Part shown: one piece after another, positions 5,991 through 20,677 of the stretch
How the letters are laid out: the number at the start of each line of letters is the position of its first letter
How positions within the stretch are numbered: the stretch's first letter is position 1
Assembly (NCBI RefSeq): GCF_008973715.1
Contig: NZ_WBOL01000001.1
Span: 186,001-250,000, forward strand
Source of the DNA: Nitrincola schmidtii
Lineage (GTDB): Bacteria > Pseudomonadota > Gammaproteobacteria > Pseudomonadales > Balneatricaceae
Reading direction: 5' to 3'
Length of the DNA stretch: 64,000 nucleotides
The notes under the pieces: generated by a model
The model's input: the letters and a program-made list of their open reading frames with translations, nothing else
Database searches by the model: none
What the model was told of the DNA's origin: nothing
Position numbers and translations under genes: made by a program

Positions 5991-6005
5991 GCAATTGGGG
6001 TGCCA
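5991..6005 (-). promoter_or_regulatory. Sigma-54 (-24/-12) promoter of tupA
   Basis: On the minus strand the sequence is TGGCACCCCAATTGC followed by TTTTG. It matches the sigma-54 consensus TGGCAC-N5-TTGC at every fixed position, with GG and GC twelve bases apart. The predicted start is near 5979, leaving a leader of about 40 bases before the tupA ATG at 5939. Confidence 0.85.
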
Positions 6006-6107
6006 GCTTTTAGCAGGCTTTTGTCTAAATGCTGATGATAGCTAGAAAGTTCTTCTGTATTTTGCATCATAATGAGACATTACAGCCTAGGTTATCTCTG
6101 CTAAAAT

Positions 6108-6153
6108 GGGACAAAATTACACAGCTAGAATTTATGTAGGGACATAAAATCCC
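6108..6153. promoter_or_regulatory. Two candidate enhancer (UAS) sites for the sigma-54 activator
   Basis: Two copies of GGGACA occur at 6108 and 6139. The second is in an imperfect inverted repeat, GGGACA-TAA-AATCCC. The first has only one good half. They lie about 105-150 bases upstream of the tupA -24 element, a usual distance for activator sites. The same motif recurs as a perfect palindrome at 20584-20600 and a near-perfect one at 19313-19327, in front of the formate dehydrogenase genes. Confidence 0.65.
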
Positions 6154-6189
6154 ATGCTATAAAAATAAACCTGACAATTTGGATCTCTA

Positions 6190-7572
6190 ATGCTCAGCAC
6201 CGATACAGACCTCTGTCGTTCCGCATCCGTTTTAGTGGTTGATGATGAATCAGGTATGCGCAGTTTTCTGCAAAAGGCCTTAGAAAAACACTTCGGATTG
6301 GTAGAAGTTGCTGGCAGCATTGAAGTGGCTGAAGAGTTACGCAAGCGTTGTCATTTTGATTTACTCATTGTGGATGTCAAACTTCCCGATCGTTCTGGTA
6401 TCGATTGGCATGAAGCATTAGATGATCCCAATCGCCATTGCGACATTATTTTCATGACGGCTTATGCAGAATTGGATACCGCTATACAAGCTCTCAGAGC
6501 AGGAGCTGCGGACTTTATCCTTAAGCCTTTTCGTCTAGAACAGATGATGAATGCGGTTAAACGTGTACTACAAAGACGCTTACTGGCACGAGAAAATTTT
6601 CTACTACGTCGAGAGGTCACTCGCTATATCGCAGCTGATAACCCGATGCTGGGAGAAAGCTCTGTCATTAAACGCCTTGAGGCCGTTATCCAACGGGTTG
6701 CCCCCACTCCATCTCCTGTGTTGATAGAAGGCGAATCAGGCACGGGAAAAGAACTGGTAGCCCGATCACTGCATCAGCAATCAGGTCGCGATGGCGCCTT
6801 TGTCGCGATCAACTGTGGCGCTATTGCACCCGACTTGATTGAAGCCGAGCTTTTTGGTCACACCAAAGGTGCGTTTACCGGTGCTGATCGTGCCAGAGAG
6901 GGTTTATTCACTTATGCATCTGGCGGCACACTGTTTTTAGATGAAATCGGTGAACTTCCATTATCAATGCAAGCCAAGCTGCTTCGTGCACTAGAGCAAA
7001 AAAGTATTCGTCCTGTCGGTAGTGAGCGTGAAATCCCAACCAATGTCCGTATCTTGGCAGCAACCAATCGCACCCTGAGCGAGGAAGTTCAAAAACAACA
7101 GTTTAGGGAAGATCTTTATTTTCGTTTAAACGTATTGACCTTAACATTGCCGCCTCTCAGAGAGCGCAGCGAAGATATTCCCCTATTAGCACACTTTTTC
7201 TCTCGTCGATTATCGGAAGACCTAGGCTTACCCGCCGTTCCTTTTAGCCACGAAGACCTTCGTGCCATGCAATCACACCTTTGGCCTGGAAACATCCGTG
7301 AACTGAAGAACTTTATTGAACGATGCATCTTATTAGGACATCTTCCGTTAACCGAACTAACCCCAACACAAAGCACGGATCTTAGCGGTGGAGGCTACCC
7401 CAGCTGCTGGCCACTCGAAGAGGTTGAAAAGCGCCATATTCTTCGCGTATTAAGTGCCTGTGATCTAAATAAGTCAGCGGCTGCTCGACAGCTAGGCATT
7501 GCTCGGAAAACGCTTGATCGCAAACTCAGTGGTTGGCAAGAAGCCGAGGATTCTTTAACAGGGACACCCTAA
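6190..7572 (+). CDS. Sigma-54-dependent response regulator (NtrC family)
   Basis: 460 residues. The receiver domain (about 10-125) has the phosphoacceptor Asp62 in LLIVDVKLPDRSG and the conserved K in ILKPFR. The AAA+ domain (about 150-385) has Walker A GESGTGKE, the sigma-54 contact loop GAFTGA, and [13 protein letters not shown]. The C-terminal Fis-type helix-turn-helix is in SAAARQLGIARKTLDRKL. It is followed one base later by its kinase. Its position opposite tupA, and the shared GGGACA repeats beside four sigma-54 promoters in this window, suggest that it activates the tungstate and formate dehydrogenase operons. The signal is unknown. A strong Shine-Dalgarno sequence is lacking. Confidence 0.92.
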   Translation: MLSTDTDLCRSASVLVVDDESGMRSFLQKALEKHFGLVEVAGSIEVAEELRKRCHFDLLIVDVKLPDRSGIDWHEALDDPNRHCDIIFMTAYAELDTAIQALRAGAADFILKPFRLEQMMNAVKRVLQRRLLARENFLLRREVTRYIAADNPMLGESSVIKRLEAVIQRVAPTPSPVLIEGESGTGKELVARSLHQQSGRDGAFVAINCGAIAPDLIEAELFGHTKGAFTGADRAREGLFTYASGGTLFLDEIGELPLSMQAKLLRALEQKSIRPVGSEREIPTNVRILAATNRTLSEEVQKQQFREDLYFRLNVLTLTLPPLRERSEDIPLLAHFFSRRLSEDLGLPAVPFSHEDLRAMQSHLWPGNIRELKNFIERCILLGHLPLTELTPTQSTDLSGGGYPSCWPLEEVEKRHILRVLSACDLNKSAAARQLGIARKTLDRKLSGWQEAEDSLTGTP

Positions 7573-7573
7573 C

Positions 7574-9658
7574 ATGAGCATTCCCTGGCGTTACTCCGTT
7601 CGTGGCAAGCTGCTCACCCTAATTTTACTGCCGATATTACTCACGTTTGCTGCCCTAATTGGCTTAACCGCATATTGGACAACCACTTATTCAGATCGCC
7701 AACTGTACATGAAAGTAGCATCTGATCTTGCGGTTGCTCGTAGCACACTACAACTCATGCAAGATCGTCAACTAGAGCGATTAGAGCAACTTAGTCAAAC
7801 CCTTAGTATTCACCCTTACCTGATAGAGGGTAGTCTTCAAGACCTGCAACCACTGATCGATGACATCATAGAAAGACAGGGATTAGATTTTTTATACCTG
7901 ATTCCTATTGAACAGCTGATAGCGGAGCAGTCACTAAGGCCAAGCATTAAAAATCGGATAGATGAATTACTTAATGGAGAAAGTATAAACGGCCTATCTG
8001 TTATTGATCAGGCTGAATTAGAGACTATTGATCCGGCATTAAACCAACGTGTTTTAGTCAATGTGTTGGACACTCCCAGAGCCATATCCTCGGACAAATC
8101 ACTCGAAACCCGCGGCATGTTTGTCCGTACCTTGCACCCTATTCACAACCATACAGGTGAATTACTCTACGTCCTAGATGGAGGTTTGTTGCTCAATCAT
8201 AACCTGGAGTTTGTTGATCGAATTCGTGATCTTGTATACGGCCAAGATGCATTACCCGAAAAAGGTATAGGAACGGTTACCCTATTTTTGGATGATGTAC
8301 GCATCACCACAAACGTCCCTGCTGAACATTTAGAACAACCCTCGCGTGACTTTGTCAGAGCCATAGGAACCCGAATCTCTGCAGAAGTACACGAACAAGT
8401 ACTGGTTCATGAGCGCATCTGGATTGATCGTGCATTTGTGGTTAATGATTGGTTTATCAGCGCTTATGAACCTATTTACAGTTTAAACGATCAACTCATC
8501 GGCGTGCTTTATGCCGGTTTCTCCGAAAGTCCTTTTATCAGCATGTATCGTCGTAACTTGGGTGAACTCGGTATTACCCTTGGTTTGATCATGCTAATTT
8601 CTGGCTATTTTGTATGGCGCAGTGCTTATCGTTTGCTTAGTCCGATCAAACGAATACATCGCTCAGTGATGGCTGTCAGAAAAGGTGATGCCGATACTAG
8701 AATTGGTCAGTTAAAAGCAGAGAACGAATTTGCCGACTTGGCACAACAATTTGACTCTATGCTCGATGAGCTTGCGGCAAGGCAAGAAGTCATCCAACAA
8801 GCCGCTGAAAAACTCGAACAAAAAGTCGAGTTACGCACCCACAGTCTAAAACGAAAAACACTCGAACTGGAAAAACACATTGAATTGCTCAATGCCACAC
8901 GCGCCGAGCTTTTTACTAAAGAGAAATTAGCAGTTTTAGGTGAGCTAACGGCAGGTATTGCTCATGAAATCAACAACCCTGCTGCCGTTATCCTAGGTCA
9001 TATCGATCTAATACAATCGGAGTTGGGCGAAAACTCAGTGGTGCAAGATGAAATCGATACTGTCATCGAGCAGGTCTATCGTATTCGAGCCATCATTAAC
9101 AACTTGCTGCAGTACAGCCGTCCAGGGCAAGTCATCGATCAAATGCAACCCTTGGATATCAATACCGTGGTACAAGACACTGTCTCATTAGTTCGTTATG
9201 CTTTGGACAAAAAAGGGATCTCTGTAGAGAGAGATTTTGGTGACTTACCCTCTGCTGAAGGGAATCGGCAACAAGTACAACAAGTGTTGGTGAACCTAAT
9301 GCTAAATGCGGCAAATGCCATGCCCACACAAGGACGTATTTGGCTAACCACACGACCCTGGCAAACCGACGATGGTGAGCTGGGTGTACAAATTCAAGTT
9401 CGTGATGAAGGTGTCGGCATGAGCGAAGAGGTTCGCCAACGTATCTTTGAACCTTTTTATACCACTCGCGAAAATGGCAACGGCTTAGGCTTATCTATCA
9501 GTCGATCCTTAGCAAAGCGCTACGGTGGCGATATTAAAGTCGAATCGACTTTAGGCAAGGGCAGTCAATTTACCATCTATTTGCGCCATAAAGCACGCCT
9601 TAACCAAGAAGATGAAGAAACCATGCGTCAGTTACTTTCGGGTCTTGGCGTTGCTTAA
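7574..9658 (+). CDS. Membrane sensor histidine kinase, partner of the 6190 regulator
   Basis: 694 residues. A first membrane helix (about 12-32) is followed by a periplasmic sensor domain of roughly 300 residues, probably a double-Cache fold. A second helix (about 333-350), a HAMP region, a short coiled coil and a HisKA domain follow. Phosphoacceptor His464 is in GELTAGIAHEINNPAAV. The HATPase motifs are NLMLNAANAM, DEGVGMSEE and GNGLGLSISRSLAKRYGG. The large periplasmic domain suggests a small external ligand, possibly formate or another carboxylate; this is inference. The gene ends convergently with moeA copy 2, with a four-base overlap of the stop codons. Confidence 0.9.
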   Translation: MSIPWRYSVRGKLLTLILLPILLTFAALIGLTAYWTTTYSDRQLYMKVASDLAVARSTLQLMQDRQLERLEQLSQTLSIHPYLIEGSLQDLQPLIDDIIERQGLDFLYLIPIEQLIAEQSLRPSIKNRIDELLNGESINGLSVIDQAELETIDPALNQRVLVNVLDTPRAISSDKSLETRGMFVRTLHPIHNHTGELLYVLDGGLLLNHNLEFVDRIRDLVYGQDALPEKGIGTVTLFLDDVRITTNVPAEHLEQPSRDFVRAIGTRISAEVHEQVLVHERIWIDRAFVVNDWFISAYEPIYSLNDQLIGVLYAGFSESPFISMYRRNLGELGITLGLIMLISGYFVWRSAYRLLSPIKRIHRSVMAVRKGDADTRIGQLKAENEFADLAQQFDSMLDELAARQEVIQQAAEKLEQKVELRTHSLKRKTLELEKHIELLNATRAELFTKEKLAVLGELTAGIAHEINNPAAVILGHIDLIQSELGENSVVQDEIDTVIEQVYRIRAIINNLLQYSRPGQVIDQMQPLDINTVVQDTVSLVRYALDKKGISVERDFGDLPSAEGNRQQVQQVLVNLMLNAANAMPTQGRIWLTTRPWQTDDGELGVQIQVRDEGVGMSEEVRQRIFEPFYTTRENGNGLGLSISRSLAKRYGGDIKVESTLGKGSQFTIYLRHKARLNQEDEETMRQLLSGLGVA

Positions 9659-10845
9659 TAAAACCAAAAATCCAACAAGTCTCCAGCAGATACCTGATGC
9701 TGAGGCGGCATAATCGCTAAGGCATTGGCGTGTACGGTTGAGGACAACACTCCTGAGTTCTGATTGGCATAGGCATGCAACTGCCAGGCCTGATCTTGCC
9801 ATACAGCTTGGACGCGAAGGTATTCTTGGCGGATTTGTGTTTTAGCCGAGAAGTGCACCTTTCCTTGCAATAATGGCTTATCCGATACTTTTTCTCCTGA
9901 CAATTTAATCAGTAAGGGCTGCACAAATACCTGCGCACCAACAAAGGTAGACACGGGATTACCGGGTAACCCCATAAATAAACACGGCCCAATACGACCG
10001 AAGGCTAAAGGCTTACCCGGCTTCATCGCCAAGCGCCATAATGACAACTCACCCAAGGCTTCAACTGCTGGTTTAACATGGTCCTCTTCACCGACGGAGA
10101 CACCGCCAGTGGAAAGAATCACATCGGCAATGGCAGCCGCTGATCGCATCGCTTCCAAAGTCTTTTCATAGCTATCTGGAACTTGTGAAAAACTGACAAC
10201 GTCGGCACCCATTTTTTCAAGATAACCTTGAAGCAAAAAACGATTAGAATTATAAATCTGTCCCGCTTTTAAAGCCGTGCCAGGCATGACCAGTTCATCG
10301 CCCGTTGACAGCAATGCCACTTTAACGCGCCGAAAGACCGATACCTGAGCCACGCCGACACTCGCCAGCAGTCCTAAGTGGCGATAATCTAAACGAGTAC
10401 CTTGATGAACAATGGTTTCACCTTGACGAATATCCTGACCCGCCGGTCGAATGTTTTGACCCAAAGTGAGGTTTTCAGGCACCACCACATCGTCAAACGC
10501 GGTAAAACTCACCGCTTCTTGCATTACGACTAGATCTGCACCGAGCGGTATTTCGCCACCGGTGAAAATACGTGCGCAAGTACCTAATTTTAGCGGCGAA
10601 GCAGGGTGACCGGCGGCAACGCGTTGACTTACGGGTAATGGCGCCAAGCGATCTTGATAGCGCAGCGCATAGCCATCCATTGAACTATTATCCGCCGGAG
10701 GGACATTCACCTGCGAAACAACATCTTCAGCTAAGACACGACCGGCACACTGAAGCAAATCTAACACTTCTGTTTGTTGCGCTTCAGGTGTCATCTCCAG
10801 CAAGGTGCTTAAAGCTTGCTCAACCGGTATCAAGGTATGATTCAT
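9655..10845 (-). CDS. moeA: Molybdopterin molybdenumtransferase MoeA, copy 2
   Basis: 396 residues with all MoeA landmarks: NVPPADNSSMDGYALR, GQDIRQGE, STGDELVMPG, STGGVSVGEEDHVKPA, MKPGKPLAFG and GLPGNPVSTFVG. It belongs to the same family as the gene at 1177-2478 but differs widely in sequence. For example, DNSSMDG replaces RNAAMDG, so it is an old paralogue rather than a recent duplicate. It is cotranscribed with moaB (9-base gap). With two MoeA proteins beside a tungstate transporter, one may favour tungsten over molybdenum; that is only an inference. Confidence 0.92.
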   Translation of the reverse strand: MNHTLIPVEQALSTLLEMTPEAQQTEVLDLLQCAGRVLAEDVVSQVNVPPADNSSMDGYALRYQDRLAPLPVSQRVAAGHPASPLKLGTCARIFTGGEIPLGADLVVMQEAVSFTAFDDVVVPENLTLGQNIRPAGQDIRQGETIVHQGTRLDYRHLGLLASVGVAQVSVFRRVKVALLSTGDELVMPGTALKAGQIYNSNRFLLQGYLEKMGADVVSFSQVPDSYEKTLEAMRSAAAIADVILSTGGVSVGEEDHVKPAVEALGELSLWRLAMKPGKPLAFGRIGPCLFMGLPGNPVSTFVGAQVFVQPLLIKLSGEKVSDKPLLQGKVHFSAKTQIRQEYLRVQAVWQDQAWQLHAYANQNSGVLSSTVHANALAIMPPQHQVSAGDLLDFWFY

Positions 10846-10854
10846 CTCGTAATC

Positions 10855-11373
10855 CTAGCTATGTAGCTGTTTACCCTGCAATAAAATGCCAACAAAGTTA
10901 CAAGGACGATGACGGCTATCCAGTTGTTCTTGCAGAATACTTTTCCATGCGGTTTTACAAGCGCCGGTAGAGCCCGGCAAACAAAAGATTGCGGTTCTGT
11001 TGGCCAAGCCTGCTAAAGCACGAGACTGAACAGTCGATGAACCTATCTCTTGAAAAGAGACCTGCCTAAAGGTTTCACCAAAGCCTTCGATTTCGGTATC
11101 AAATAAAGGACGCAGTGCTTCGGGAGTTGAATCACGACCTGAAAAGCCTGTGCCACCGGTGGTCAAAATCACCTGCACGCTGGGATCGGCAATCCATTGA
11201 CTGACGACTGCACGCATTTTGTAAACATCATCGGGAATAATATCGCGGGCAATCAGTTGATGACCTGATGCTTCTAAAAGTTGCACCAAGGTATCACCCG
11301 AGCGATCTTCGGCAAGTGTTCGAGTATCTGACAAGGTTAATACAGCAATGTTTAATGATACGGCGTCAGACAT
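10855..11373 (-). CDS. moaB: Molybdenum cofactor biosynthesis protein MoaB (molybdopterin adenylyltransferase family)
   Basis: 172 residues, related to MoaB/MogA, which adenylylates molybdopterin before MoeA inserts the metal. Motifs are AVLTLSDTRTLAEDRSGDTL, LTTGGTGFSGRDSTPEAL and IFCLPGSTGACKTAW. The start ATG at 11373 overlaps the TAA of the upstream DUF1244 gene (TAATG), so I reject a 29-codon longer form. The order DUF1244-moaB-moeA is an operon; moaB and moeA act in consecutive steps. Confidence 0.92.
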   Translation of the reverse strand: MSDAVSLNIAVLTLSDTRTLAEDRSGDTLVQLLEASGHQLIARDIIPDDVYKMRAVVSQWIADPSVQVILTTGGTGFSGRDSTPEALRPLFDTEIEGFGETFRQVSFQEIGSSTVQSRALAGLANRTAIFCLPGSTGACKTAWKSILQEQLDSRHRPCNFVGILLQGKQLHS

Positions 11374-11690: not shown

Positions 11691-11792
11691 CAGTGGAGCT
11701 CCTGATTGAAAGAGTGGGTTATTTTTACTGGGATTATATCGCTAAAAGAATAAGAAAACAGAACCCAACCTTGTATTTAAGGCCTTGCTGTA

Positions 11793-11830
11793 CAAAAAGA
11801 AACAGCCATGTCGGGTGAGGAACATGGCTG
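11793..11830 (-). terminator. Rho-independent terminator of the fdh operon
   Basis: A perfect 8-bp stem CAGCCATG/CATGGCTG with a 12-base loop is followed on the minus strand by TTTCTTTTTG. It sits 42 bases after the fdhC stop and before the DUF1244-moaB-moeA operon. Confidence 0.85.
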
Positions 11831-11871
11831 CTAGAGTATATAGAGTACTTACGCAAAATCTGTGGTGCAGA

Positions 11872-12861
11872 TCAGCTCTTAGTTTTATTTTTTACCGCGT
11901 CATACCAAAGATCATGGTGCTGTTTCGCCCAGGATTCATCAACATAACCGGTTTTCATCCCTTCAAATGCGCCTTCAGTTCCAAGCGTACCAATATAGAT
12001 ATGCCCGAAAGCAGCCGCCATCAGTAGCAGAGAAGAGCCGGCATGAATAATCAAGAACAATTGCATGGTTTCACGAGTTTGTCCGAAGTTTGGAAAATCA
12101 AGCACTAAACCTGAAATCACAACGGTTAAACCGACAAACACAATCATCCAAAACCACACTTTTTCACCACCGTTCAGGTATCCAGCAGATGGATGCCCCT
12201 TACCCACTAGCCCACCGCCTTTCAGGAACCACTTCAGATCGACCATATTGAAAAAGTTATGCTTTAACCATTTGATAATCATGGCTAAGACACCTAAACC
12301 AAATAAGGGACCTAGGTAGTTATGGATATTCTTTGCGGCGGTCATCCAAGCCGCCCAGACACTGGTCGGAAGAATCGGCATCAAGAACCATTTAGCATAA
12401 AGAATAGACAAGCCGGTAATCGCTAAAATGATAAACAAGCTAGCGACAAACCAATGAATGGTTCTATCCCAGCGTGACCATCGCTCTACTTTTCTGCCGG
12501 TACGAGGATGCTCAAGCTTTACTTTGCCAACCAATAGGTAGAACAACGTAATCGCCAGCAAGCTTCCTCCCAGTGCTATCGCACCACCAGGTGAAATCCA
12601 TTGATTTCGGATCTCACGCCAGCGTTCACCTTCCACCATGATTAGGGTATCTGCACCCGGGCTATTGGACTGAGTTCGTCCACTAACACCTTGCATGGCA
12701 TCTTCCCAAAAGCTAGGTTGAGTACCTGGCATGGATTGAAAGGCTTCTCGACGTGCATCGGCACCCTGCTGCGCTAACACTGTTGCGGGCAGTGCCATCA
12801 GCACCACCAGCAACAGAATCAGCCAGGCTTTTATGTCACGCACTGACTGGTATCTTGCCAT
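11872..12861 (-). CDS. fdhC: Formate dehydrogenase gamma subunit, membrane cytochrome b
   Basis: 329 residues. The gamma subunit anchors the enzyme and passes electrons to the quinone pool through two hemes b. An N-terminal signal-like helix (about 11-30) is followed by a periplasmic segment and then four helices. WDRTIHWFVASLFIILAITG contains a heme-ligand His, and NYLGPLFGLGVLAMIIKWLKH and IIHAGSSLLLMAAAFGHIYIG carry further candidate ligands. It is longer than E. coli FdnI because of the extra N-terminal part, as in Shewanella/epsilonproteobacterial-type FdhC. It starts two bases after the fdhB stop. Confidence 0.9.
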   Translation of the reverse strand: MARYQSVRDIKAWLILLLVVLMALPATVLAQQGADARREAFQSMPGTQPSFWEDAMQGVSGRTQSNSPGADTLIMVEGERWREIRNQWISPGGAIALGGSLLAITLFYLLVGKVKLEHPRTGRKVERWSRWDRTIHWFVASLFIILAITGLSILYAKWFLMPILPTSVWAAWMTAAKNIHNYLGPLFGLGVLAMIIKWLKHNFFNMVDLKWFLKGGGLVGKGHPSAGYLNGGEKVWFWMIVFVGLTVVISGLVLDFPNFGQTRETMQLFLIIHAGSSLLLMAAAFGHIYIGTLGTEGAFEGMKTGYVDESWAKQHHDLWYDAVKNKTKS

Positions 12862-12863
12862 GG

Positions 12864-13508
12864 TTATACACTCTGTGTTGCATCATAGGCTAAATCTGCT
12901 GCGTTCTTGGCCAACTGCTCTGATTCAGCAGCTTCATGCTCGACTGAACTCCAAGCACTATTACGATGGCCACGATACACAACACGCTCACGGAAGATAT
13001 CCGCTACTTCTGCTGCATCACCGGCTAACAGAGCTTTGGTTGAACACATTTCTGCACACAAAGGTAATTTACCTTCACGCAGACGGTTCGCACCATACTT
13101 CTGCTCTTCTAGAACCGGATCTTCCTCAGGACCACCGGCACAGAAGGTACATTTATCCATCTTGCCACGAGCACCAAAAGCGCCTTGTTTCGGGAACTGA
13201 GGTGCACCAAATGGGCAGGCGTACAGGCAGTAACCGCAACCGATACAGGCATCCTTATTGTGAAGAATCAATCCATCTTCAGTTGGGTAGAAGCAATCTG
13301 TTGGGCAAACTGCCATACAGGGTGCATCCGAGCAATGCATACAAGCAACCGAGATAGAGACTTCTTTACCGATTTCACCATCATCAAGTGTCACCACGCG
13401 ACGACGTTGAATACCCCATTCGGTTTCATTAGCATTTTTACATGCCGTAACACAGCCGTTACATTCGATGCAGCGCTCTGAGTCACATAAAAATTTCATA
13501 CGAGCCAT
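12864..13508 (-). CDS. fdhB: Formate dehydrogenase beta subunit, four [4Fe-4S] ferredoxin
   Basis: 214 residues. It moves electrons from FdhA to the cytochrome b. Cysteine motifs are CIECNGCVTACKNAN, CMHCSDAPCMAVCPTDC, CIGCGYCLYACPFGAPQF and CTFCAGG...CAEMC, enough for four cubane clusters. There is no signal peptide; export would be by hitch-hiking on the Tat signal of FdhA. I choose the ATG at 13508, with AGGAGA eight bases upstream, rather than an upstream in-frame start that falls inside a hairpin. It is between fdhA and fdhC. Confidence 0.93.
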   Translation of the reverse strand: MARMKFLCDSERCIECNGCVTACKNANETEWGIQRRRVVTLDDGEIGKEVSISVACMHCSDAPCMAVCPTDCFYPTEDGLILHNKDACIGCGYCLYACPFGAPQFPKQGAFGARGKMDKCTFCAGGPEEDPVLEEQKYGANRLREGKLPLCAEMCSTKALLAGDAAEVADIFRERVVYRGHRNSAWSSVEHEAAESEQLAKNAADLAYDATQSV

Positions 13509-13523
13509 GGATTTTCTCCTCAT

Positions 13524-13549
13524 GGACACTGACCTCCCGGTCAGTGTCC
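13524..13549. other. Intercistronic perfect hairpin between fdhA and fdhB
   Basis: An 11-bp perfect inverted repeat GGACACTGACC/GGTCAGTGTCC has a four-base loop. On the minus strand no T-run follows; instead the fdhB ribosome site and ATG come within 15 bases. It is therefore more likely an mRNA processing or stability element than a terminator. Confidence 0.7.
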
Positions 13550-13568
13550 CGCATTAAGTTCTATGGGT

Positions 13569-16430
13569 TCAGGCCGCTTTCTCGATACGGCAAACTGTAC
13601 ACTTGGTTTCCTGCATGATGGTAACTGGATCGTAACCATAGGTTGTGACCGTATTCACCGACTCACCCAGTACATAAGGATCACTGCCTTCTGGATAACG
13701 ACTACGCAAGTCTTCACCCTGGAACTCACCACCGAAGTGGAAAGGCATAAAGGCAACATCACGATCCACACGATTAGTGACCAGTGCTTTGACGCGAACA
13801 CGTCCACCTTCAGGTCCATAAACCCAAACATCATCACCATCGGCAATACGTAGCGTGTTGGCATTAAATGGATTCATCTCGACAAACATGTCTTGCTGAA
13901 GTTCAGCCAACCAAGGGTTAGAACGAGTTTCATCACCACCGCCTTCATACTCTACCAAGCGACCCGAAGTCAGAATGATCGGGAATTCAGCAGAGGTGTC
14001 TCTATCCTGTATGGACTTATACAGCGTTGGCATACGGTAAAGAGATTCGAAGTCATCCCATGTTGGATATTTTGCCACTAGGTCACGACGTGTGGTGTAC
14101 AGCGGCTCACGATGCTTAGGTATCGCATCAGGGAAAGTCCAGACGATGGTTCGAGCCTTACCGTTACCAAAAGGCGCACAACCATGTTTGATGGCAACAC
14201 GTTGGATACCACCCGAAAGGTCAGTTTTCCAATCTTTACCATCCGCCGCTGCTTTTTCAGCATCGGTGAGATCATCCCACCAACCCAGCTGCTTCAGCAT
14301 ATTGGCGGTAAACTCTGGGTGACCATCACCGATTTCGTTACCTACCGGAGCTGAACCTTCAGCAAGTAAGGTTTCACCATTACGCTCAACACCAAAGTTT
14401 GCACGGAAGCCTAAACCACCATCTTTAACTGGCAAGCTGGTGTCATACAGGACATGTGTACCTGGATGACGCATCTCTGCTGTTCCCCAGCACGGCCAAG
14501 GCAATCCATAGAACTCTCCATGAGCATCGGTTCCCACACCGCGCAAACTGGTGAAGTCGAAGGCGTGCCAGTTTTCTTGATGGTATTTCAGACGCTCAGG
14601 GCTTTGTCCGGTGTAACCGATGGTCCACATACCACGGTTGTATTCACGAACAATATCTTCAATTAAGGGTTCATCACCATTCACTTGAATATTCTTGAAC
14701 ACCTCGTCTGCAATACCGACCTTTTTCGCCAGCAAGTACATGATTTCGTGGTCAGGTTTCGACTCGAAATGCGGCTCGATAACCTTACTACGCCATTGAA
14801 TTGAACGGTTAGATGCGGTGACTGAACCATAGGTCTCAAACTGAGTACAGGCAGGTAACAGATAAACGCCATCGGTACGATCGTTCATCACAGCTGCGAC
14901 GGTTGGATAAGGATCAACAATGACCATCATATCCAGTTTTTTCATCGCTTCGCGCATTTCAGGTCCACGCGTTTGCGAGTTGACGGCGTGGCCCCAATAG
15001 AACATGGCACGAATATTATCGTTCTGCGCCATCTTCTCTTTATCTTCAAGCACACCGTCTATCCAGCGAGAAACGGTGATACCGTTGGTGTGCATGGGTT
15101 TGCCGCCACGGTACTCGGTTTGATCGTAACGATTCACAATCCAATCGTAATCGACCCCCCAAACACCAGCCCAGTGACGCCAAGAACCTTCAGCCAAGCC
15201 GTAGTAGCCAGGTAAAGAATCTGACAATACGCCAAAGTCAGTCGCACCTTGAACGTTATCATGACCACGGAAGATGTTAGCACCACCCCCTGACTTACCG
15301 ATGTTTCCGAGTGCAAGCTCTAGGATACAGTAGGCACGGGTGTTGTTGTTACCGGTGGTATGCTGCGTTCCACCCATACACCATACGATACATCCAGGAC
15401 GATTATCTGATAGCAGTTTCGCTGTATCGTACATGGTTTTTTCATCAACGCCGGTGATATCTTCAACCACCGATGGCGGGAACTGCTTCACCTCTTCACG
15501 AATTTCGTCCATACCGTAAACACGCTGAGCCAGATACTGTCTATCTTCCCAACCGTTTTCAAAGATATGCCACAACAGACCCCAAATATACGCCACATCG
15601 GACCCTGGACGAATGCGAACATACTGCGTCGCATGCGCAGCGGTGCGGGTGTAACGAGGATCCGCTACTACGATTCTGCAATTATTGCGCTCTTTGGCAA
15701 TCATGACGTGCTGCATCGAAACGGGGTGCGCTTCAGCTGCGTTCGAGCCGATAAACAACATGGATTTCGAGTTTTGCATGTCGTTGTAGCTGTTGGTCAT
15801 CGCACCATAACCCCAGGTGTTAGCGACCCCAGCAACGGTGGTTGAGTGACAGATACGTGCCTGATGCTCAACGTTGTTGGTTCCCCAAAGTGAAACCATC
15901 TTACGGAACAGATAAGCCTGCTCGTTATTGAATTTTGCGGAACCTAACCAGAACACAGAATCAGGACCGGATTCAGCACGAATCTGTTCGATTTTGTCCC
16001 CCACTTCACTAATCGCTTGTTCCCAACTTAATCGTTTCCATTGGCCGTTTTCCAGCTTCATAGGATACTTTAAGCGGCGGGTGCTGTGTCCGTGGTAACG
16101 TAAAGCTGCACCCTTAGCACAATGAGCGCCACGGTTGATTGGGTTATCAAATGCTGCTTCTTGGTATGTCCAAACACCGTTTTGAACATGAGCATAGACA
16201 CCGCACCCTACTGAACAGTGGGTACAAATAGTCCGCTTCACCTCAACCGGTGCTGATGACTTAGGCGTGGCGGCTTCAACGGGACGAACCATGCCTTTTC
16301 CTAGCAATCCAGAAGCGGCGATGCCTCCTGCTGCTAGCGTTGTACCTTTTAGAAAGCCTCGACGCGAGACGCCTAATCGGTTTTGAGTGGTTTCCAGTGA
16401 TGAGTCACTGATTTTTTTGTTCAGACGCAT
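13569..16430 (-). CDS. fdhA: Formate dehydrogenase alpha subunit, Tat-exported, Cys-type molybdenum/tungsten enzyme
   Basis: 953 residues. It oxidises formate to CO2 at a bis-MGD metal centre, most likely in the periplasm. The Tat signal SRRGFLK is at residues 22-28. The [4Fe-4S] ligands are Cys69, Cys72, Cys76 and Cys104. The metal-ligand position is Cys194, followed by His195, in RICHSTTVAGVANTWGYG. A normal Cys codon stands where E. coli FdnG has selenocysteine. The C-terminal MGD-binding domain has LTSGRLVEYEGGGDETRSNPW. A strong GGAGATAACG site precedes the ATG. The nearby tungstate transporter suggests that W may be the metal, which the sequence alone cannot settle. Layout and length resemble the Shewanella/Campylobacter-type respiratory enzymes. 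Confidence 0.95.
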   Translation of the reverse strand: MRLNKKISDSSLETTQNRLGVSRRGFLKGTTLAAGGIAASGLLGKGMVRPVEAATPKSSAPVEVKRTICTHCSVGCGVYAHVQNGVWTYQEAAFDNPINRGAHCAKGAALRYHGHSTRRLKYPMKLENGQWKRLSWEQAISEVGDKIEQIRAESGPDSVFWLGSAKFNNEQAYLFRKMVSLWGTNNVEHQARICHSTTVAGVANTWGYGAMTNSYNDMQNSKSMLFIGSNAAEAHPVSMQHVMIAKERNNCRIVVADPRYTRTAAHATQYVRIRPGSDVAYIWGLLWHIFENGWEDRQYLAQRVYGMDEIREEVKQFPPSVVEDITGVDEKTMYDTAKLLSDNRPGCIVWCMGGTQHTTGNNNTRAYCILELALGNIGKSGGGANIFRGHDNVQGATDFGVLSDSLPGYYGLAEGSWRHWAGVWGVDYDWIVNRYDQTEYRGGKPMHTNGITVSRWIDGVLEDKEKMAQNDNIRAMFYWGHAVNSQTRGPEMREAMKKLDMMVIVDPYPTVAAVMNDRTDGVYLLPACTQFETYGSVTASNRSIQWRSKVIEPHFESKPDHEIMYLLAKKVGIADEVFKNIQVNGDEPLIEDIVREYNRGMWTIGYTGQSPERLKYHQENWHAFDFTSLRGVGTDAHGEFYGLPWPCWGTAEMRHPGTHVLYDTSLPVKDGGLGFRANFGVERNGETLLAEGSAPVGNEIGDGHPEFTANMLKQLGWWDDLTDAEKAAADGKDWKTDLSGGIQRVAIKHGCAPFGNGKARTIVWTFPDAIPKHREPLYTTRRDLVAKYPTWDDFESLYRMPTLYKSIQDRDTSAEFPIILTSGRLVEYEGGGDETRSNPWLAELQQDMFVEMNPFNANTLRIADGDDVWVYGPEGGRVRVKALVTNRVDRDVAFMPFHFGGEFQGEDLRSRYPEGSDPYVLGESVNTVTTYGYDPVTIMQETKCTVCRIEKAA

Positions 16431-16469
16431 CGTTATCTCCTCAAATCTCAGAGTATTTGACAGTCCGCA

Positions 16470-16682
16470 TCAGCGACAACTGGCGTAATAAGAACGGATA
16501 TGATCCGTTTCGTGGTAACCTTGTTCAGGCTTCTCTTGCTCAACCGTTAGCGCAGGCGTATCTGCAACTGCAGTTCCAGCCGAAGCGGCAAGACCCACTG
16601 CGGATACGGCAGCGACGCCACGTAGAAATTGTCTACGTGAAGAACTGACCTGCTCTTCATTTTCTTTTGTAGTAGTCATCAT
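16470..16682 (-). CDS. Small Tat-signal protein of formate dehydrogenase clusters
   Basis: 70 residues. A twin-arginine motif SSSRRQFLRG near residue 16 is followed by a hydrophobic stretch rich in Ala/Val. The remaining 35 residues are polar and end in SYYASCR. It matches the family often named formate dehydrogenase region Tat target. Its function is unknown; it may be a small periplasmic partner of FdhA. Two consecutive ATGs at 16682 and 16679 follow GGAGAG; a GTG at 16694 overlapping the chaperone stop is less likely. Confidence 0.88.
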   Translation of the reverse strand: MMTTTKENEEQVSSSRRQFLRGVAAVSAVGLAASAGTAVADTPALTVEQEKPEQGYHETDHIRSYYASCR

Positions 16683-16690
16683 TGCTCTCC

Positions 16691-17326
16691 TCACCCTCTC
16701 AAGTGCACGCTTTGGACAGAGTCCAATCGTTTTTGTAAGTACAGACTTTCAATATGTAAAAAGGCTTCACCTAGCATTCCAACAGCGCTGTAAAAAACAG
16801 CACTCGGCGCTTGGGTCATGTCAGCGAATAGCTGTTTAGCCCACGGATCAATATGACGCTGATAAAACACCGCTTGGCGTTCACGACTCGCGCCTTGCTG
16901 AATAAGTTGACTCATCACTTCGAGTTGTAAAGCGATGTGATCTTCAGGTTCTTTAACCTCATCTTTTCTGGAAAAACCTAACAACTCAAGATCACTTCGA
17001 AGTTCAATCAATGGAGCCTCCATCAGTGAACCGGTTAAGTACCAAGATGCAAAAGGAGTCAACTCGCCTTGGGTAATTCCGATAAAAAGTGTGCAGTATT
17101 CATCTTCTAGCTGATCAGTGTTGGCTCTTTCGGCAGCAAGGCGCAAAAACTCCCAAGCCTTGGTCATGGAGTTAGACGCAGTCGGGTCTACTTCCATCTG
17201 AGACAAAAAACCTAACAATTCTGTTGATGGATGACTTCGACATAATGAAGCCAGTAACGCATAAATATCTGCTCTTAAAGCATCTTCATCAGTCATTGGC
17301 GCTGTCTGTATTAAGCTATTCATCAT
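16691..17326 (-). CDS. TorD/DmsD-family chaperone for the formate dehydrogenase
   Basis: 211 residues, all helical in appearance and soluble. Motifs include DIYALLASLCRSHPS, EDEYCTLFIGITQGELTPFASWYLTG and EPEDHIALQLEVMSQL, which match the TorD cytoplasmic chaperone family. These proteins guard the Tat signal and help insert the cofactor before export. The partner is presumably FdhA or the small Tat protein immediately downstream. A ribosome site AAGGA overlaps the stop of the upstream ferredoxin gene. Confidence 0.88.
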   Translation of the reverse strand: MMNSLIQTAPMTDEDALRADIYALLASLCRSHPSTELLGFLSQMEVDPTASNSMTKAWEFLRLAAERANTDQLEDEYCTLFIGITQGELTPFASWYLTGSLMEAPLIELRSDLELLGFSRKDEVKEPEDHIALQLEVMSQLIQQGASRERQAVFYQRHIDPWAKQLFADMTQAPSAVFYSAVGMLGEAFLHIESLYLQKRLDSVQSVHLRG

Positions 17327-17332
17327 GATTCC

Positions 17333-19096
17333 TTAAAGACGCAACTGAGCCGTAGGATCGGCTGCCAATTCGCGATAGCTGTCTTTCACTCTGCAGTCAT
17401 CACACATTTTTAGACGTTTAGCAGCCTCGCCCTGATAGTAAGGATGTGCCTCTAATTTCTTAGAAATCTTTTCAATGGTGCTTTGCGTGGCAAAAGCTTT
17501 ACCACAACTGATGCAGTGGAATGGTTCTTCTTGCTTCATTACCCGTGGTTCAGAGCGCATCCCAGCAGCGGGAGCAAAGCGCGCTTCCAAGGTAATGGCA
17601 TTTTCTGGACAGCTATGTTCACACAAACCACACTGCACACAATCGGCTTCAGTGAAGGCTAAAACGGGCGCATCTTCACTGGCACTGCGAAGTGCTTGTG
17701 TCGGACAAATCGAGACACAACTCATGCACAAGGTACAATCTTGAGCATTGACCAGCACCTGACCATAGGGACTGCCACTTGGGAGGCTAATGGGCTCATC
17801 AGAGCTATCTCCCTGTTCATACAGCAGATCAAGTGCTTCATTTAGGGTTTTACGTTTTCCTTTGTAGGTAAAAGCAGGACCTGTCGGCAAGCCAAACCAA
17901 TCTTTTAAGGAATCATCTAACGCTGCTAAATTCGACTGTAACTGTCCGGCCTCAACCAGACTGATCCGTGACGCAGGATGCCCCAGTGACTCTAGAAGCT
18001 TGCCCGTAACCGATACCTCTTTTTTTAACAACGCTTGCAGGGTTGGCGGTGTCTGATCATCTAGTAAAAGGGCAACATAACTGGTTCCGTGAACGAGTAA
18101 CGAAACCCAAATCTCTACTCCTAAGGCACCCACTTCCTCCAGAGAAATCGGCAGGATATGTCTGGGTAGGCTTTCAAGATCAAATTCAGAATGTTCAGCA
18201 TGCAGTAAAATGGCAGGATGCTCACCACCAAATTGCTGATAACTGTCTAAGCACAAACGCAACAAATCCAACCAACGCTGTGGACCGGGAGCCATAAAGG
18301 TCAAGGCACCCGTTGGACAGGCGGTAGTACAACTACCTGCACCGTGACACAAATTCACATTGACCAAAATTTGAGGATCATGTGATAGCGTTTTGTTGTC
18401 CGTTGTTAGGGCATCGGCAGGACAAACATCCAGACAGCGCGTACAGCCAATATTGCCACGGTCTGCATGTGCACAAATATCATGATTGACTTGAACATAG
18501 GCAGGTTTCTCAAACTCACCGACCATCCCGCTCAGTTGCTCTAGTGCATCAACCAAACGATCGCTGGCAAGACTGATGCCTTGCTCAGTCGACTCATCTG
18601 CAAGTTGACCAACATGAAAATAGCCTGGCGGTGATAACTCTGCTGCGATGACCGGTTCTGGATTAAGATCCAAAACCAGATCAAAGTGATCTTGTCCTGC
18701 ACTGACTTCAGCAGGATTAATCAGATCACCATTAGGTGCCGTCAGGCGTAACTCGAAAGCACCTAACCACCCTGATAAAGAAGCAAACGGCAGATAAATC
18801 GGCGTTAGGTTTGCAGCCGCTTGCATCGCCTTTTCAAGATGCTCATCGTCTTGAGAAAATACATTCCCCATGGCAATCAGTGTGATACTGGTCACGCCTT
18901 GAATTTGATCGGCCACCAAGCGGATCAAATCTTCAGGCCCTAAGATCACTAGATGACCACGGCTTTGATAACTGATCACGCCATCTTGCATCGCCATCAG
19001 TGGTGGCATTGCATTCAGTGCTTGCTGACGAGCACGCGCGTTGGTTTCCGGAGATGCTGTAAAAGCTCTGTTTACTATTAGACTATTGGGTTTCAT
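17333..19096 (-). CDS. Multi-cluster 4Fe-4S ferredoxin-like protein of the fdh operon
   Basis: 587 residues, first gene of the fdh operon. The N-terminal 200 residues have no motif that I recognise. Cys-rich ferredoxin motifs then follow: CTRCLDVCPADAL, CHGAGSCTTACPTGAL, CTLCMSCVSICPTQAL and CVQCGLCEHSCPENAI. A C-terminal zinc-ribbon-like part has FHCISCGKAF and MCDDCRVKD. There is no signal peptide, so it should act in the cytoplasm. Homologues occur in Shewanella-type fdh clusters with no firm function. Electron supply for maturation, or transfer of electrons from formate to cytoplasmic acceptors, are possibilities. The sigma-54 promoter at 19228-19242 would start its mRNA. Confidence 0.85.
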   Translation of the reverse strand: MKPNSLIVNRAFTASPETNARARQQALNAMPPLMAMQDGVISYQSRGHLVILGPEDLIRLVADQIQGVTSITLIAMGNVFSQDDEHLEKAMQAAANLTPIYLPFASLSGWLGAFELRLTAPNGDLINPAEVSAGQDHFDLVLDLNPEPVIAAELSPPGYFHVGQLADESTEQGISLASDRLVDALEQLSGMVGEFEKPAYVQVNHDICAHADRGNIGCTRCLDVCPADALTTDNKTLSHDPQILVNVNLCHGAGSCTTACPTGALTFMAPGPQRWLDLLRLCLDSYQQFGGEHPAILLHAEHSEFDLESLPRHILPISLEEVGALGVEIWVSLLVHGTSYVALLLDDQTPPTLQALLKKEVSVTGKLLESLGHPASRISLVEAGQLQSNLAALDDSLKDWFGLPTGPAFTYKGKRKTLNEALDLLYEQGDSSDEPISLPSGSPYGQVLVNAQDCTLCMSCVSICPTQALRSASEDAPVLAFTEADCVQCGLCEHSCPENAITLEARFAPAAGMRSEPRVMKQEEPFHCISCGKAFATQSTIEKISKKLEAHPYYQGEAAKRLKMCDDCRVKDSYRELAADPTAQLRL

Positions 19097-19123
19097 TGAC
19101 TCTCTCTCAGCTCACTTGAGTAG

Positions 19124-19188
19124 AAAACCTATCTAGAAAATCTATCTAGAAAATCTGTCTGGACATTCTATCTAGCAATTCAATCTAA
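19124..19188. repeat. Five degenerate 13-bp tandem repeats in the fdh operon leader
   Basis: Units starting at 19124, 19137, 19150, 19163 and 19176 read AAAACCTATCTAG, AAAATCTATCTAG, AAAATCTGTCTGG, ACATTCTATCTAG and CAATTCAATCTAA. They lie between the predicted sigma-54 start near 19216 and the first gene at 19096, so they would be in the untranslated leader. Confidence 0.85.
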
Positions 19189-19227
19189 CAAGTGGTCGAG
19201 CTTATTTAGTTATTGTTTAAAAAGTTT

Positions 19228-19242
19228 GCAATATGAACGCCA
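19228..19242 (-). promoter_or_regulatory. Sigma-54 promoter of the fdh operon
   Basis: On the minus strand the sequence is TGGCGTTCATATTGC. GG and GC are twelve bases apart, and TGGC and TTGC are both intact. The predicted start is near 19216, giving a leader of about 120 bases that contains the 13-bp repeats. Confidence 0.72.
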
Positions 19243-19312
19243 ACTTTTTCAGACCTAAAAAGGAAAATTGATACCAAATAAACCAAGCTTATAGATACCA
19301 ACCATCAAGATA

Positions 19313-19327
19313 GGGACATTTTGTCTA
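19313..19327. promoter_or_regulatory. Candidate activator site of the fdh operon promoter
   Basis: GGGACA-TTT-TGTCTA is an inverted repeat with one mismatched pair. It matches the perfect palindrome at 20584-20600. It is about 70-85 bases upstream of the -24 element and overlaps the stop codon of the DUF3306 gene. Confidence 0.65.
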
Positions 19328-19966
19328 GACTGATTCATTTTTACCGATCTGATCTGGCTCATCGACCTTAGTAGAACCCACTAAATTTTCTTTCGATTTC
19401 AATGTATCAGCCGACTCGGCAGATTGTTCAGGTATCGATACATCATTGGAGGCATCGGTTTTTAATAAAGCGTCCCTCGCTTGTTGCATCGCTTCGTCCA
19501 TCTGCTGCTGAGCCCAACCTCTCACTTTTTCGCCTACTTCTTGCACCAGTTTTTTTGGCTGAGAATAATCCAATGCGTAATCATCCAGTGGATCTCTAAC
19601 ATTAAATTCAGGTTGGTGAAAAAACTTGCGCAGCGCTTGTCGGCGCAGTTCGGCAGAAACACCACTCGACCAGAACATCGACATATCACTTTTAGCATTG
19701 ATGGTACTTAAATCGGGCATATCCGCATCCGTCAGAACAGGCACTTCTTCTAGGGGTTCTGGCTCATTTTCAGATACCCTTTCTAATGAAGCATCGGGCA
19801 CGTCATCTTTAAGCTGATCGTCTTCCTTAAGGTCAGCCTTCTGAAGAGACTCCTCCTCAGTAACCTCAACGGCTAATTGCGTTGCTGAACTCTCTTCTGA
19901 CGGCTCCAACTGATCTGGCGTTGTGCGCTTCAAGCGAGACCATCGACCTAAAAAACCTTCTGTCAC
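19325..19966 (-). CDS. DUF3306 family protein of formate dehydrogenase clusters
   Basis: 213 residues. The N-terminus FLGRWSRLKR and the block ELRRQALRKFFHQPEFNVRDPLDDYALDY are diagnostic of DUF3306. The middle is acidic and low in complexity. The start is a GTG at 19966 with a near-perfect AAGGAGG six bases upstream, one base after the stop of DUF3305. An apparent longer frame inside DUF3305 is not needed. The family is known from fdh loci, but its activity is not established. Confidence 0.87.
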   Translation of the reverse strand: MTEGFLGRWSRLKRTTPDQLEPSEESSATQLAVEVTEEESLQKADLKEDDQLKDDVPDASLERVSENEPEPLEEVPVLTDADMPDLSTINAKSDMSMFWSSGVSAELRRQALRKFFHQPEFNVRDPLDDYALDYSQPKKLVQEVGEKVRGWAQQQMDEAMQQARDALLKTDASNDVSIPEQSAESADTLKSKENLVGSTKVDEPDQIGKNESV

Positions 19967-19967
19967 C

Positions 19968-20420
19968 TCAGACCTCCTTTTGCTTGGATTGCGTCCGAAG
20001 ACGACGTTTACCTGCTCTTGGGTCTTCAACCTCACCATGATGAGACATAAACTGTTCTAACCACACACGCACCGCTGCTGGCATGGGAATACTGAGCACG
20101 GGTTGTCCGGCATCCATATAATCTGCTGCAACATCTTGCGCGACGGTTAATTTTCGCGGAACTCGCTGTTCAGCAGTAATATCCTCGCAAACCACAAATA
20201 ACCGAGGGGATTCAGAACTGAGGTTAAACCGATACGCCATACGTTCATCACGATGAAGCATTAACCAAAGTGCAACGGCGTCCTCTCGAGAAGACTGCTG
20301 AGCAATTTCAGCCACTTCCCAATTAATAGAAGGCCAGCCACGCGACAAGGTTTCATGCTTATCTAAACTAACCCACAAAGACCAAGCATCCAACGCGGGT
20401 CCGTTTTCTTGCTGAGTCAT
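19968..20420 (-). CDS. DUF3305 family protein of formate dehydrogenase clusters
   Basis: 150 residues, soluble. Features are SLWVSLDKHETLSRGWPSINWEV and LMLHRDERMAYRFNLSSESPRLFVVCE, typical of DUF3305. The second ATG (20420) is better placed after AGGAG than the first (20426), which abuts it. It is paired with DUF3306, and the pair probably has its own sigma-54 promoter at 20475-20489. Function unknown; a role in assembling or maturing the formate dehydrogenase is suggested by position alone. Confidence 0.85.
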   Translation of the reverse strand: MTQQENGPALDAWSLWVSLDKHETLSRGWPSINWEVAEIAQQSSREDAVALWLMLHRDERMAYRFNLSSESPRLFVVCEDITAEQRVPRKLTVAQDVAADYMDAGQPVLSIPMPAAVRVWLEQFMSHHGEVEDPRAGKRRLRTQSKQKEV

Positions 20421-20474
20421 TGGCATCTCCTGCTGTTTTATTTACTAGTGATTTCAATTCAGTTTAGACGCTAT

Positions 20475-20489
20475 GCAAAGAACGCGCCG
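20475..20489 (-). promoter_or_regulatory. Candidate sigma-54 promoter of DUF3305-DUF3306
   Basis: On the minus strand the sequence is CGGCGCGTTCTTTGC followed by AT. The GG and GC are correctly spaced and TTGCAT is intact; the -24 box deviates at two positions from TGGCACG. The predicted start near 20463 leaves a leader of about 43 bases. Confidence 0.6.
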
Positions 20490-20583
20490 CTCCACGTAAA
20501 CCTTTATATCCCTGATTAGTTCAGCAGGATTGGAAAATAAGCCTAGATTAAACGCGTCAATTTAAGCCAATCGAAAGACCACC

Positions 20584-20600
20584 TGGGACAAAATGTCCCA
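20584..20600. promoter_or_regulatory. Perfect palindromic activator site shared by DUF3305 and fdhD
   Basis: TGGGACA-AAA-TGTCCCA is a perfect 7-bp inverted repeat. It lies in the 316-base divergent gap between DUF3305 and fdhD, about 95 bases from the minus-strand -24 box and 63 bases from the plus-strand one. It fits a single enhancer serving both directions. Apart from this site and the two promoters I see nothing else in the gap. Confidence 0.72.
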
Positions 20601-20662
20601 ATGAAAAAAAGGGATAGCGATTCAAAGCCTTGATCGATAGACTCTTTCGGTTCTCTTCAGAT

Positions 20663-20677
20663 TGGTACAGATGTTGC
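20663..20677 (+). promoter_or_regulatory. Sigma-54 promoter of fdhD
   Basis: TGGTACAGATGTTGC followed by TG: GG and GC are twelve bases apart and only one -24 position differs from the consensus. The predicted start is near 20689, with a leader of about 48 bases to the ATG at 20737. Confidence 0.75.

Follow-up and report, generated by a model that had tools for sequence, protein, structure and literature searches.

One of the described systems close to the one presented here is the FhlA regulon of Escherichia coli (formate hydrogenlyase), which also covers a formate dehydrogenase (FDH) and maturation genes; in place of a receiver domain, FhlA has an N-terminal formate-binding region, with which it senses formate in the cytoplasm. 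FhlA is a sigma-54 activator that is induced by formate and controls formate metabolism, according to a sigma-54 survey (PMC3162934). The system presented here is a putative two-component system of Nitrincola schmidtii, encoded in a stretch of 64,000 nucleotides (contig NZ_WBOL01000001.1, positions 186,001 to 250,000 of the forward strand; hereafter the window) of a 3.14-Mb genome (G000), together with genes for tungstate-type import and for an FDH. It is similar to the FhlA regulon in combining a sigma-54 activator with a predicted formate-linked control of formate metabolism, but its regulator, encoded at 6190, carries a receiver domain according to Pfam and thus does not group with FhlA. 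It differs further in that sensing would fall to a membrane kinase with its sensor outside, the operator is a different one, and the regulon includes metal import.

The domain order, the GAFTGA motif, the Fis-type helix-turn-helix (HTH) domain, and the enhancer-like sites are also those of AtoSC, ZraSR, and NtrBC, which differ in signal, operator, and regulon. On the side of the sensor, a Cache domain is shared with PacF, Atu0526, and the proteins of the PDB entries 8py0 and 8py1, the motif R-x-x-T...T being common with 8py0 and 8py1 and, by its spacing, with PacF; these four proteins are chemoreceptors, whereas the protein of N. schmidtii is a histidine kinase that would control transcription. 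Finally, TaoR and the regulators of the ModE/TunR type exert a one-component, metal-responsive control on tungstate transport (tup genes). Here, in contrast, it is the enzyme's substrate that would induce the tup genes.

Two sigma-54 surveys, in the portions of their texts examined, touch formate through FhlA, formate hydrogenlyase, and one oxidoreductase cluster of orthologous groups (COG) (PMC3162934, PMC12316311). In this COG the survey of 2025 counts 176 sigma-54-regulated members, 32% of them formate dehydrogenases, and describes an enrichment in alpha-, beta-, and gammaproteobacteria and in bacilli (PMC12316311). The same portions contain no word beginning with "tungst" in either survey and, in that of 2025, no regulator or operator for formate dehydrogenases. 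An initial annotation of the locus, made from the sequence alone, knew of no described system with this combination; no description was found in the full-text literature by titles and abstract openings, subscription papers being mostly outside the coverage. Sigma-54 control of formate dehydrogenases is already known, and what is new, as far as we have seen, is the regulator, the operator, the signal, and the tie to metal import.

We propose that the kinase (7574) would bind periplasmic formate through its Cache domain and phosphorylate the NtrC-type regulator (6190), and that the phosphorylated regulator would bind GGGACA-N3-TGTCCC sites located about 100-170 bp upstream of sigma-54 promoters, switching on tupABC with mobA-mobB-moeA-moaCD, the FDH operon, DUF3305-DUF3306, and fdhD. 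In this way, formate would induce formate dehydrogenase along with its metal, cofactor, and maturation factor. Activation, the contact between this regulator and these sites, formate as the ligand, and tungstate as the metal are predictions. The part made up of regulator, operator, and promoters appears highly probable when taken alone, and the complete model, in which formate is the signal, appears probable.

The tup and cofactor genes (293-5939) are on the minus strand, and the regulator and kinase genes (6190-9658) are divergent from them on the plus strand. An FDH3-type formate dehydrogenase operon (11872-19096, minus strand) encodes a polyferredoxin, a TorD-like chaperone, a small twin-arginine translocation (Tat) protein, and FdhABC; beyond it lies DUF3306-DUF3305 (minus strand), and fdhD, followed by an HTH-PBP_like gene, is divergent from DUF3305. 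The two-component genes, the promoters, and the operators are the following:

6190-7572, plus strand: NtrC-type response regulator, proposed activator (Pfam: receiver, sigma-54 AAA+, and Fis-type HTH domains; GAFTGA)
7574-9658, plus strand: membrane histidine kinase, proposed formate sensor (Pfam: periplasmic Cache, PF17202; HAMP; HisKA; HATPase)
5990-6005, minus strand: sigma-54 -24/-12 element of the tup operon, TGGCACCCCAATTGCT, 0 mismatches to TGGCACN5TTGCW, p 0.000
19227-19242, minus strand: sigma-54 element of the fdh operon, TGGCGTTCATATTGCA, 2 mismatches to TGGCACN5TTGCW, p 0.000
20474-20489, minus strand: sigma-54 element of DUF3305-DUF3306, CGGCGCGTTCTTTGCA, 2 mismatches to TGGCACN5TTGCW, p 0.010
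20663-20678, plus strand: sigma-54 element of fdhD, TGGTACAGATGTTGCT, 1 mismatch to TGGCACN5TTGCW, p 0.000
6139-6153: operator in the tupA/regulator intergenic region, 10/12 match with 2 mismatches, centre at about -167 (tupA)
6108-6122: second, weaker operator, 9/12 with 3 mismatches, centre at about -136 (tupA), 31 bp from that at 6139
19313-19327: operator of the fdh operon, 10/12 with 2 mismatches, centre at -104
20585-20599: exact operator GGGACA-N3-TGTCCC (12/12), common to DUF3305 and fdhD, centres at -129 (DUF3305) and -97 (fdhD)

The p values come from 200 dinucleotide shuffles per upstream region. The initial annotation had placed four -24/-12 elements with a 12-base GG/GC spacing before tupA, fdh, DUF3305, and fdhD, and all four are found with this spacing (first base to first base, 10 bases between). 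Over the whole window, boxes with at most three mismatches stay at chance level (309 found, 322 expected). The initial annotation had also placed an inverted repeat beside each promoter: repeats of the GGGACA-N3-TGTCCC type are indeed there, but only that at 20585 is exact, and it is a single site shared by DUF3305 and fdhD. Measured from the predicted transcript starts, the operator centres lie 97-167 bp upstream, within the normal range for sigma-54 enhancer-like sites, and the spacing of about 31 bp between paired operators is also present in relatives. The only other exact operator of the genome is inside a 1033-amino acid open frame, without any sigma-54 box scoring at least 9 within 400 bp.

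The genome encodes RpoN. The protein encoded at 6190 had been considered the only local receiver-type sigma-54 activator, divergent from tupA, and both points hold, since the other tblastn match of the window (E 1e-3; 34483-35493) aligns from residue 120 and lacks the receiver. Its phospho-acceptor D62 is kept in 92 of 93 aligned regulators, 65 of which have an exact GAFTGA, and the region of the recognition helix is mostly G[IV][SAT]RKT[LMI][DE]RK in this set, much alike in the tup, fdh, and OFA types. Among the 25 NCBIfam models listed, none reached its cut-off, the best being AtoC (361 vs 714). The kinase gene adjoins that of the regulator, and its H464 is kept in 99/99 kinases. The domains, the GAFTGA motif, the adjacent kinase, and the -24/-12 targets plus RpoN place the regulator, at the level of sequence, in the NtrC family, and phosphorylation-dependent activation at these promoters is predicted.

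The strongest evidence comes from the family to which N. schmidtii belongs. We have compared 21 family loci, i.e., the window and 20 neighbourhoods (ten of the 21 from one genus), scoring the best site in the 450 bp upstream of each gene against 200 dinucleotide shuffles (p at most 0.05). The operator was significant upstream of tupA in 14/21, DUF3305 in 18/18, fdhD in 18/18, and fdhFeS in 13/18, a total of 63/75 target regions, vs 0/211 regions of 13 control genes in the same loci; when the common intergenic region of DUF3305 and fdhD is counted once, the figure is 45/57. Sigma-54 boxes (p at most 0.05) were present in 51/75 target and 16/211 control regions, and the operator centre is found at -103/-104 before the fdh operon in 14/18 loci. 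The tup genes, regulator, kinase, fdh operon, DUF3305/3306, and fdhD are mostly kept together in the loci whose stretch extends that far, in a block order that varies, and some contigs end early. The sequences themselves show these genes with their promoters and operators, how these are conserved and spaced, and that the operator accompanies the two-component system. The idea of the initial annotation that one two-component system serves tungstate import and FDH synthesis and maturation gains support from the operators, promoters, geometry, and co-occurrence within the family. The signal and the adjacency to OFA-like genes elsewhere go beyond what had been annotated. As a separate observation, the reading frames of the two-component genes are interrupted in L039 (G085) and L028 (G053), with split matches and one TAA, perhaps through errors of assembly.

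The kinase was found in 45 of 116 family genomes (E at most 1e-60). All 29 that have it together with tupA (E 1e-20) also have FDH3 (E 1e-200), and the other 16 have neither tupA nor FDH3 at those thresholds. Two further genomes combine tupA and FDH3 while lacking the kinase at E 1e-60, and their loci are without operators. In all, ten tup/fdh loci of eight kinase-less family genomes showed 0 operators at up to two mismatches. The second tup locus of a kinase-bearing genome has one site with at most two mismatches, about 3.8 kb from tupA. Of the 16 sites with at most one mismatch in six family genomes, 12 are in this locus; among the four outside, one has no box of at least 8.5 and three have single boxes of 8.5-9.0 at -222, +215, and -342. 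As to further regulon members in the own genome, 11 of the 40 other sites (at most two mismatches) were analysed and none was convincing, only L155 having a sigma-54 box of at least 9 within 400 bp (9.0, 255 bp away). We also noticed second tup copies in L172 (G004) and L171 (G055), in the order tupA-tupC-tupB and without a nearby operator.

The sensor part of the kinase is an sCache_3_3 domain (PF17202, E 3.2e-24). A profile of the Cache region run against all PDB sequences retrieved 8py1 (7e-6) and 8py0 (3.1e-5), and then a beta-galactosidase at 0.6; 8py0 is a sensor domain of Oscillibacter and 8py1 one of Asticcacaulis, and both titles state a complex with formate. A longer kinase profile also matched HAMP domains, and a single-sequence search with part of the sensor gave no PDB match, the matches being obtained with alignments alone. 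An AlphaFold2 model of the kinase (43 sequences; mean predicted local distance difference test score of 86.6) was compared with the PDB by Foldseek, and the top three matches were integrative models titled MCPB, YVAQ, and WALK, followed by MkcA (9heh), 8py0, LuxQ (3c38), 8py1, and then many other sensor domains; when normalised by query length, the TM-scores are low, because membrane helices form part of the model.

When the Cache regions are aligned, the R, T(+3), and T(+16) positions of the two formate complexes correspond to R243, T246, and T266 of the kinase; of 99 kinases, 99, 99, and 98, respectively, keep these residues. The window kinase has an insertion between T246 and T266, and the spacing is exact in relatives such as L056, where it also matches that of R142/T145/T158 of PacF. 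Changes of R142, T145, and T158 are reported to affect formate binding by PacF (PMC12501870), formate has been assigned to an sCache_3_3 receptor with reported formate residues (PMC12415202), and Atu0526 binds formate with a dissociation constant of 172 uM (PMC10294657). Based on the PDB matches, the R-x-x-T...T residues, and the FDH and OFA-like partners, formate is the most likely signal of the kinase and lactate the main alternative; formate binding by the Cache domain is a prediction.

The same system is found beside other genes. A scan of named genomes yielded at least 80 kinase loci from gamma-, beta-, and alphaproteobacteria, and the kinase was present in 19 of 321 genomes drawn from the class, the own genome included. 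In total, 105 kinase loci were labelled, and the tree comprises 104 kinases, one of the 105 being too short; five named loci were left out of it as presumed duplicates of family genomes. The labels of the 105 loci listed were tup plus FDH3/FdhD/DUF3305 (26), tup only (16), FDH only (13), OFA (25), and none (25). On the tree the OFA label changes 6 times, vs a shuffled mean of 22.8, and starred branches force 3 changes. Within the family, the kinase gene adjoins an OFA-like MFS gene in all nine loci fetched from genomes without tupA/FDH3, and neither tupA nor tupB was matched in these loci. Five OFA-like proteins score 314-327 bits with the SfMCT lactate transporter model (cut-off 320, two above) and 149-193 bits with the oxalate/formate antiport family model (cut-off 375). 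No OFA gene was found in the own genome, in a search without a positive control. In L050 (G054) the kinase belongs to the OFA clade of the tree and the locus is of the tup plus fdh kind, possibly a swap of the system or of its partner genes.

A de novo search for 6-base dyads (spacers 0-8) in 25 OFA upstream regions ranked GGGACA-N3-TGTCCC first (13/25), and the operators of these regions are often paired about 22, 31, or 42 bp apart. Outside the family, among the named loci listed, the operator precedes the OFA-like gene in 15/16 and tupA in 9/20. Five OFA loci (L099, L112, L115, L126, L128) from one Rhodobacterales-containing clade have conserved operators and a regulator that has lost the Thr of GAFTGA. 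A -24/-12 box of at least 8.5 precedes OFA in 0/5 loci where this Thr is lost vs 19/20 where it is kept (Fisher p 1.1e-4), with a threshold chosen after seeing the data and with GAFTNA or GAFTSA in some of the 20. This looks like a loss of sigma-54 dependence and resembles a natural control. L128 and L115, whose records bear the names Nocardioides marinus and Enemella evansiae (Actinomycetota), fall among the Rhodobacterales kinases and are perhaps contaminated or mislabelled assemblies.

Other formate dehydrogenases also accompany the system. In Sulfuritalea (L097:5295-8390) an FDH-N alpha gene (TIGR01553, 1501 bits) with one in-frame TGA, presumably selenocysteine, is beside it. The FDH alpha genes of the alphaproteobacterial loci L110, L099, and L114 exceed the TIGR01591 cut-off and have a NuoG-like N-terminus; we take them to encode nicotinamide adenine dinucleotide (NAD)-type enzymes. 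An FdhD gene is present in L110 and L123. In L071, the OFA-like gene downstream of the system is followed by a gene like those of pyrroloquinoline quinone-dependent alcohol dehydrogenases (14394-16115).

Several findings weigh against the proposed model. In the window, two of the three operator regions are imperfect, and there is no excess of sites either there (13 with at most three mismatches, 17.3 expected) or in the genome (43 with at most two, vs 71 for the reversed pattern). The six family genomes hold 16 sites of the operator pattern and 12 of the reversed one, so that the signal is the 12 of 16 in this locus, and some relatives have no clear site before tupA or fdhFeS (14/21 and 13/18 significant). 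Outside the family, fdh promoters seldom have the operator (fdhD 3/15, fdhFeS 0/10; DUF3305 2/2), and it occurs at 22/63 regulator upstream regions, with 7/213 in controls. De novo dyads upstream of the regulator are weakly peaked, both in the family (GGGTCA and ATTATG 6/21 each, GGGACA 5/21) and in the non-OFA named loci listed (GGGACA 6/48), and at fdhD, fdhFeS, and tupA of the non-OFA named loci no operator-like dyad came on top. For this last reason, the claim on fdh promoters is limited to the family, and the coupling of tup and fdh through one operator, supported by the loci compared, is likewise put forward for this family only. Moreover, 25 of the 105 kinase loci have no tup, FDH3/FdhD/DUF3305, or OFA label in the stretch examined, although at least L097 and L123 among them carry an FDH-N or FdhD gene. 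TupA and TupB stay below the curated tungstate-family cut-offs, the longer kinase profile weakly matches the dicarboxylate sensor DcuS (E 0.013, N-terminal part), and the scores of the OFA-like proteins, near the lactate-model cut-off and far below those of the oxalate/formate models, leave room for another monocarboxylate.

An alternative explanation has the same regulator, sites, and promoters and a kinase that senses another short carboxylate, i.e., lactate, oxalate, acetate, or pyruvate. The OFA-like neighbours score highest with the L-lactate transporter model SfMCT, and Cache domains bind various carboxylates (PMC12415202). We hold this explanation unlikely, because FdhD and three types of FDH genes are repeatedly found nearby and because, in sequence, the sensor most resembles two domains solved with formate, with the R-x-x-T...T residues kept. 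The kinase might instead respond to tungstate/molybdate shortage or to loaded TupA, given that its gene and that of the regulator are oriented divergently to tupA and accompany tup genes in many loci. This is decidedly unlikely: the pair adjoins OFA-like genes in 9/9 fetched family loci where no tupA/tupB was matched, 15 of the 16 named loci listed with an OFA-like gene have the operator, and the residues and PDB matches point to formate. Tungstate as the signal is disfavoured by the OFA loci.

The repeats could also belong to another regulator, above all to the excisionase-HTH/PBP_like (TaoR-like) protein encoded at 21596, which sits in the locus and overlaps fdhD. The TaoR family controls tup and tungsto-enzyme genes, and among the non-OFA kinase loci listed a site with at most one mismatch is present in 18/36 with a TaoR-like gene vs 7/43 without, an association that may reflect more complete tup/fdh stretches in the first set. 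When sites anywhere in the locus are counted, however, such a site also occurs in 13/25 OFA loci that have the two-component system and no TaoR-like gene, and in 0/3 loci (a small number) with a TaoR-like gene and no two-component system. Moreover, the repeats stand at least about 100 bp ahead of the sigma-54 promoters, as do sites for enhancer-binding proteins. This disfavoured explanation seems very improbable. Finally, common boxes and a degenerate repeat picked by eye could have met by chance, and the counts of imperfect repeats, at or below chance in window and genome, would agree with it. The sites are significant because of their position and conservation and not because of their counts; with 63/75 target vs 0/211 control regions and a fixed spacing in 14/18, a chance origin was rejected and retains next to no probability.

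Returning to the formate-sensing model, we lean slightly towards a broader view in which one formate-sensing two-component family of alpha-, beta-, and gammaproteobacteria, with one recognition helix and one operator, would have been repeatedly plugged into OFA-like transport, FDH3, FDH-N, and NAD-type FDH and, in one lineage, into metal import and cofactor synthesis, metal uptake being set by the enzyme substrate and sigma-54 dependence being lost in some Rhodobacterales. If the model is true, it provides a concrete candidate for a kinase that senses formate, the ligand residues being predicted, together with an exactly specified operator and a delimited regulon; tungstate would be imported because formate is present and not because the metal is scarce, and a sigma-54 switch inducible by formate would become available. 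With the operator consensus, candidate formate regulons could also be sought in uncultured Proteobacteria.

The genes of the tup operon are the following:

5133-5939, minus strand: tupA, tungstate-type ATP-binding cassette (ABC) binding protein (NCBIfam NF041772, 234 bits, below the cut-off of 400)
4336-5043, minus strand: tupB, permease (NCBIfam NF041773, 190 bits, below the cut-off of 320)
3695-4339, minus strand: tupC, ATPase (named by position and sequence; synteny)
293-3678, minus strand: mobA, mobB, moeA, and a moaC-moaD fusion (Pfam for mobA, mobB, and moaCD; moeA from sequence; synteny)

The cofactor genes follow tupC in the same direction and probably form a single transcript with tup. 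NF041772 is the sole NCBIfam family matched by TupA, its equivalog cut-off not being reached, and for TupB the tungstate family comes second after a general permease model. The genome has a separate ModA gene above its cut-off, which fits tup serving tungstate. The metal would be tungstate rather than molybdate, as judged by family resemblance.

The remaining genes are these:

17333-19096, minus strand: polyferredoxin of the fdh operon (Pfam)
16691-17326, minus strand: TorD-like chaperone (Pfam/NCBIfam-type family matches)
16470-16694, minus strand: small protein with the twin-arginine signal SRRQFLRG, between chaperone and fdhA (sequence inspection)
13569-16430, minus strand: fdhA, formate dehydrogenase catalytic subunit with a Tat-like signal (TIGR01591, 458 bits, below the cut-off of 666)
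12864-13529, minus strand: fdhB, FDH3 iron-sulphur subunit (NF038355, 326 bits, above the cut-off of 240)
11872-12861, minus strand: fdhC, FDH cytochrome b subunit (TIGR01583, 183 bits, above the cut-off of 115.85)
19968-20426, minus strand: DUF3305 (Pfam)
19325-20038, minus strand: DUF3306 (Pfam)
20737-21603, plus strand: fdhD, FDH maturation protein (Pfam)
21596-22504, plus strand: protein with excisionase-type HTH and PBP_like domains, overlapping fdhD (Pfam/NCBIfam)
34483-35493: second sigma-54 activator (AAA+ and weak Fis HTH; no receiver in the matched part)

The enzyme is assigned to the FDH3 type by its beta and gamma subunits, both above the curated cut-offs, the alpha subunit being below. 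The protein encoded at 21596, which we take to be perhaps a TaoR-like tungstate/molybdate regulator, could provide a second, metal-responsive layer of control.

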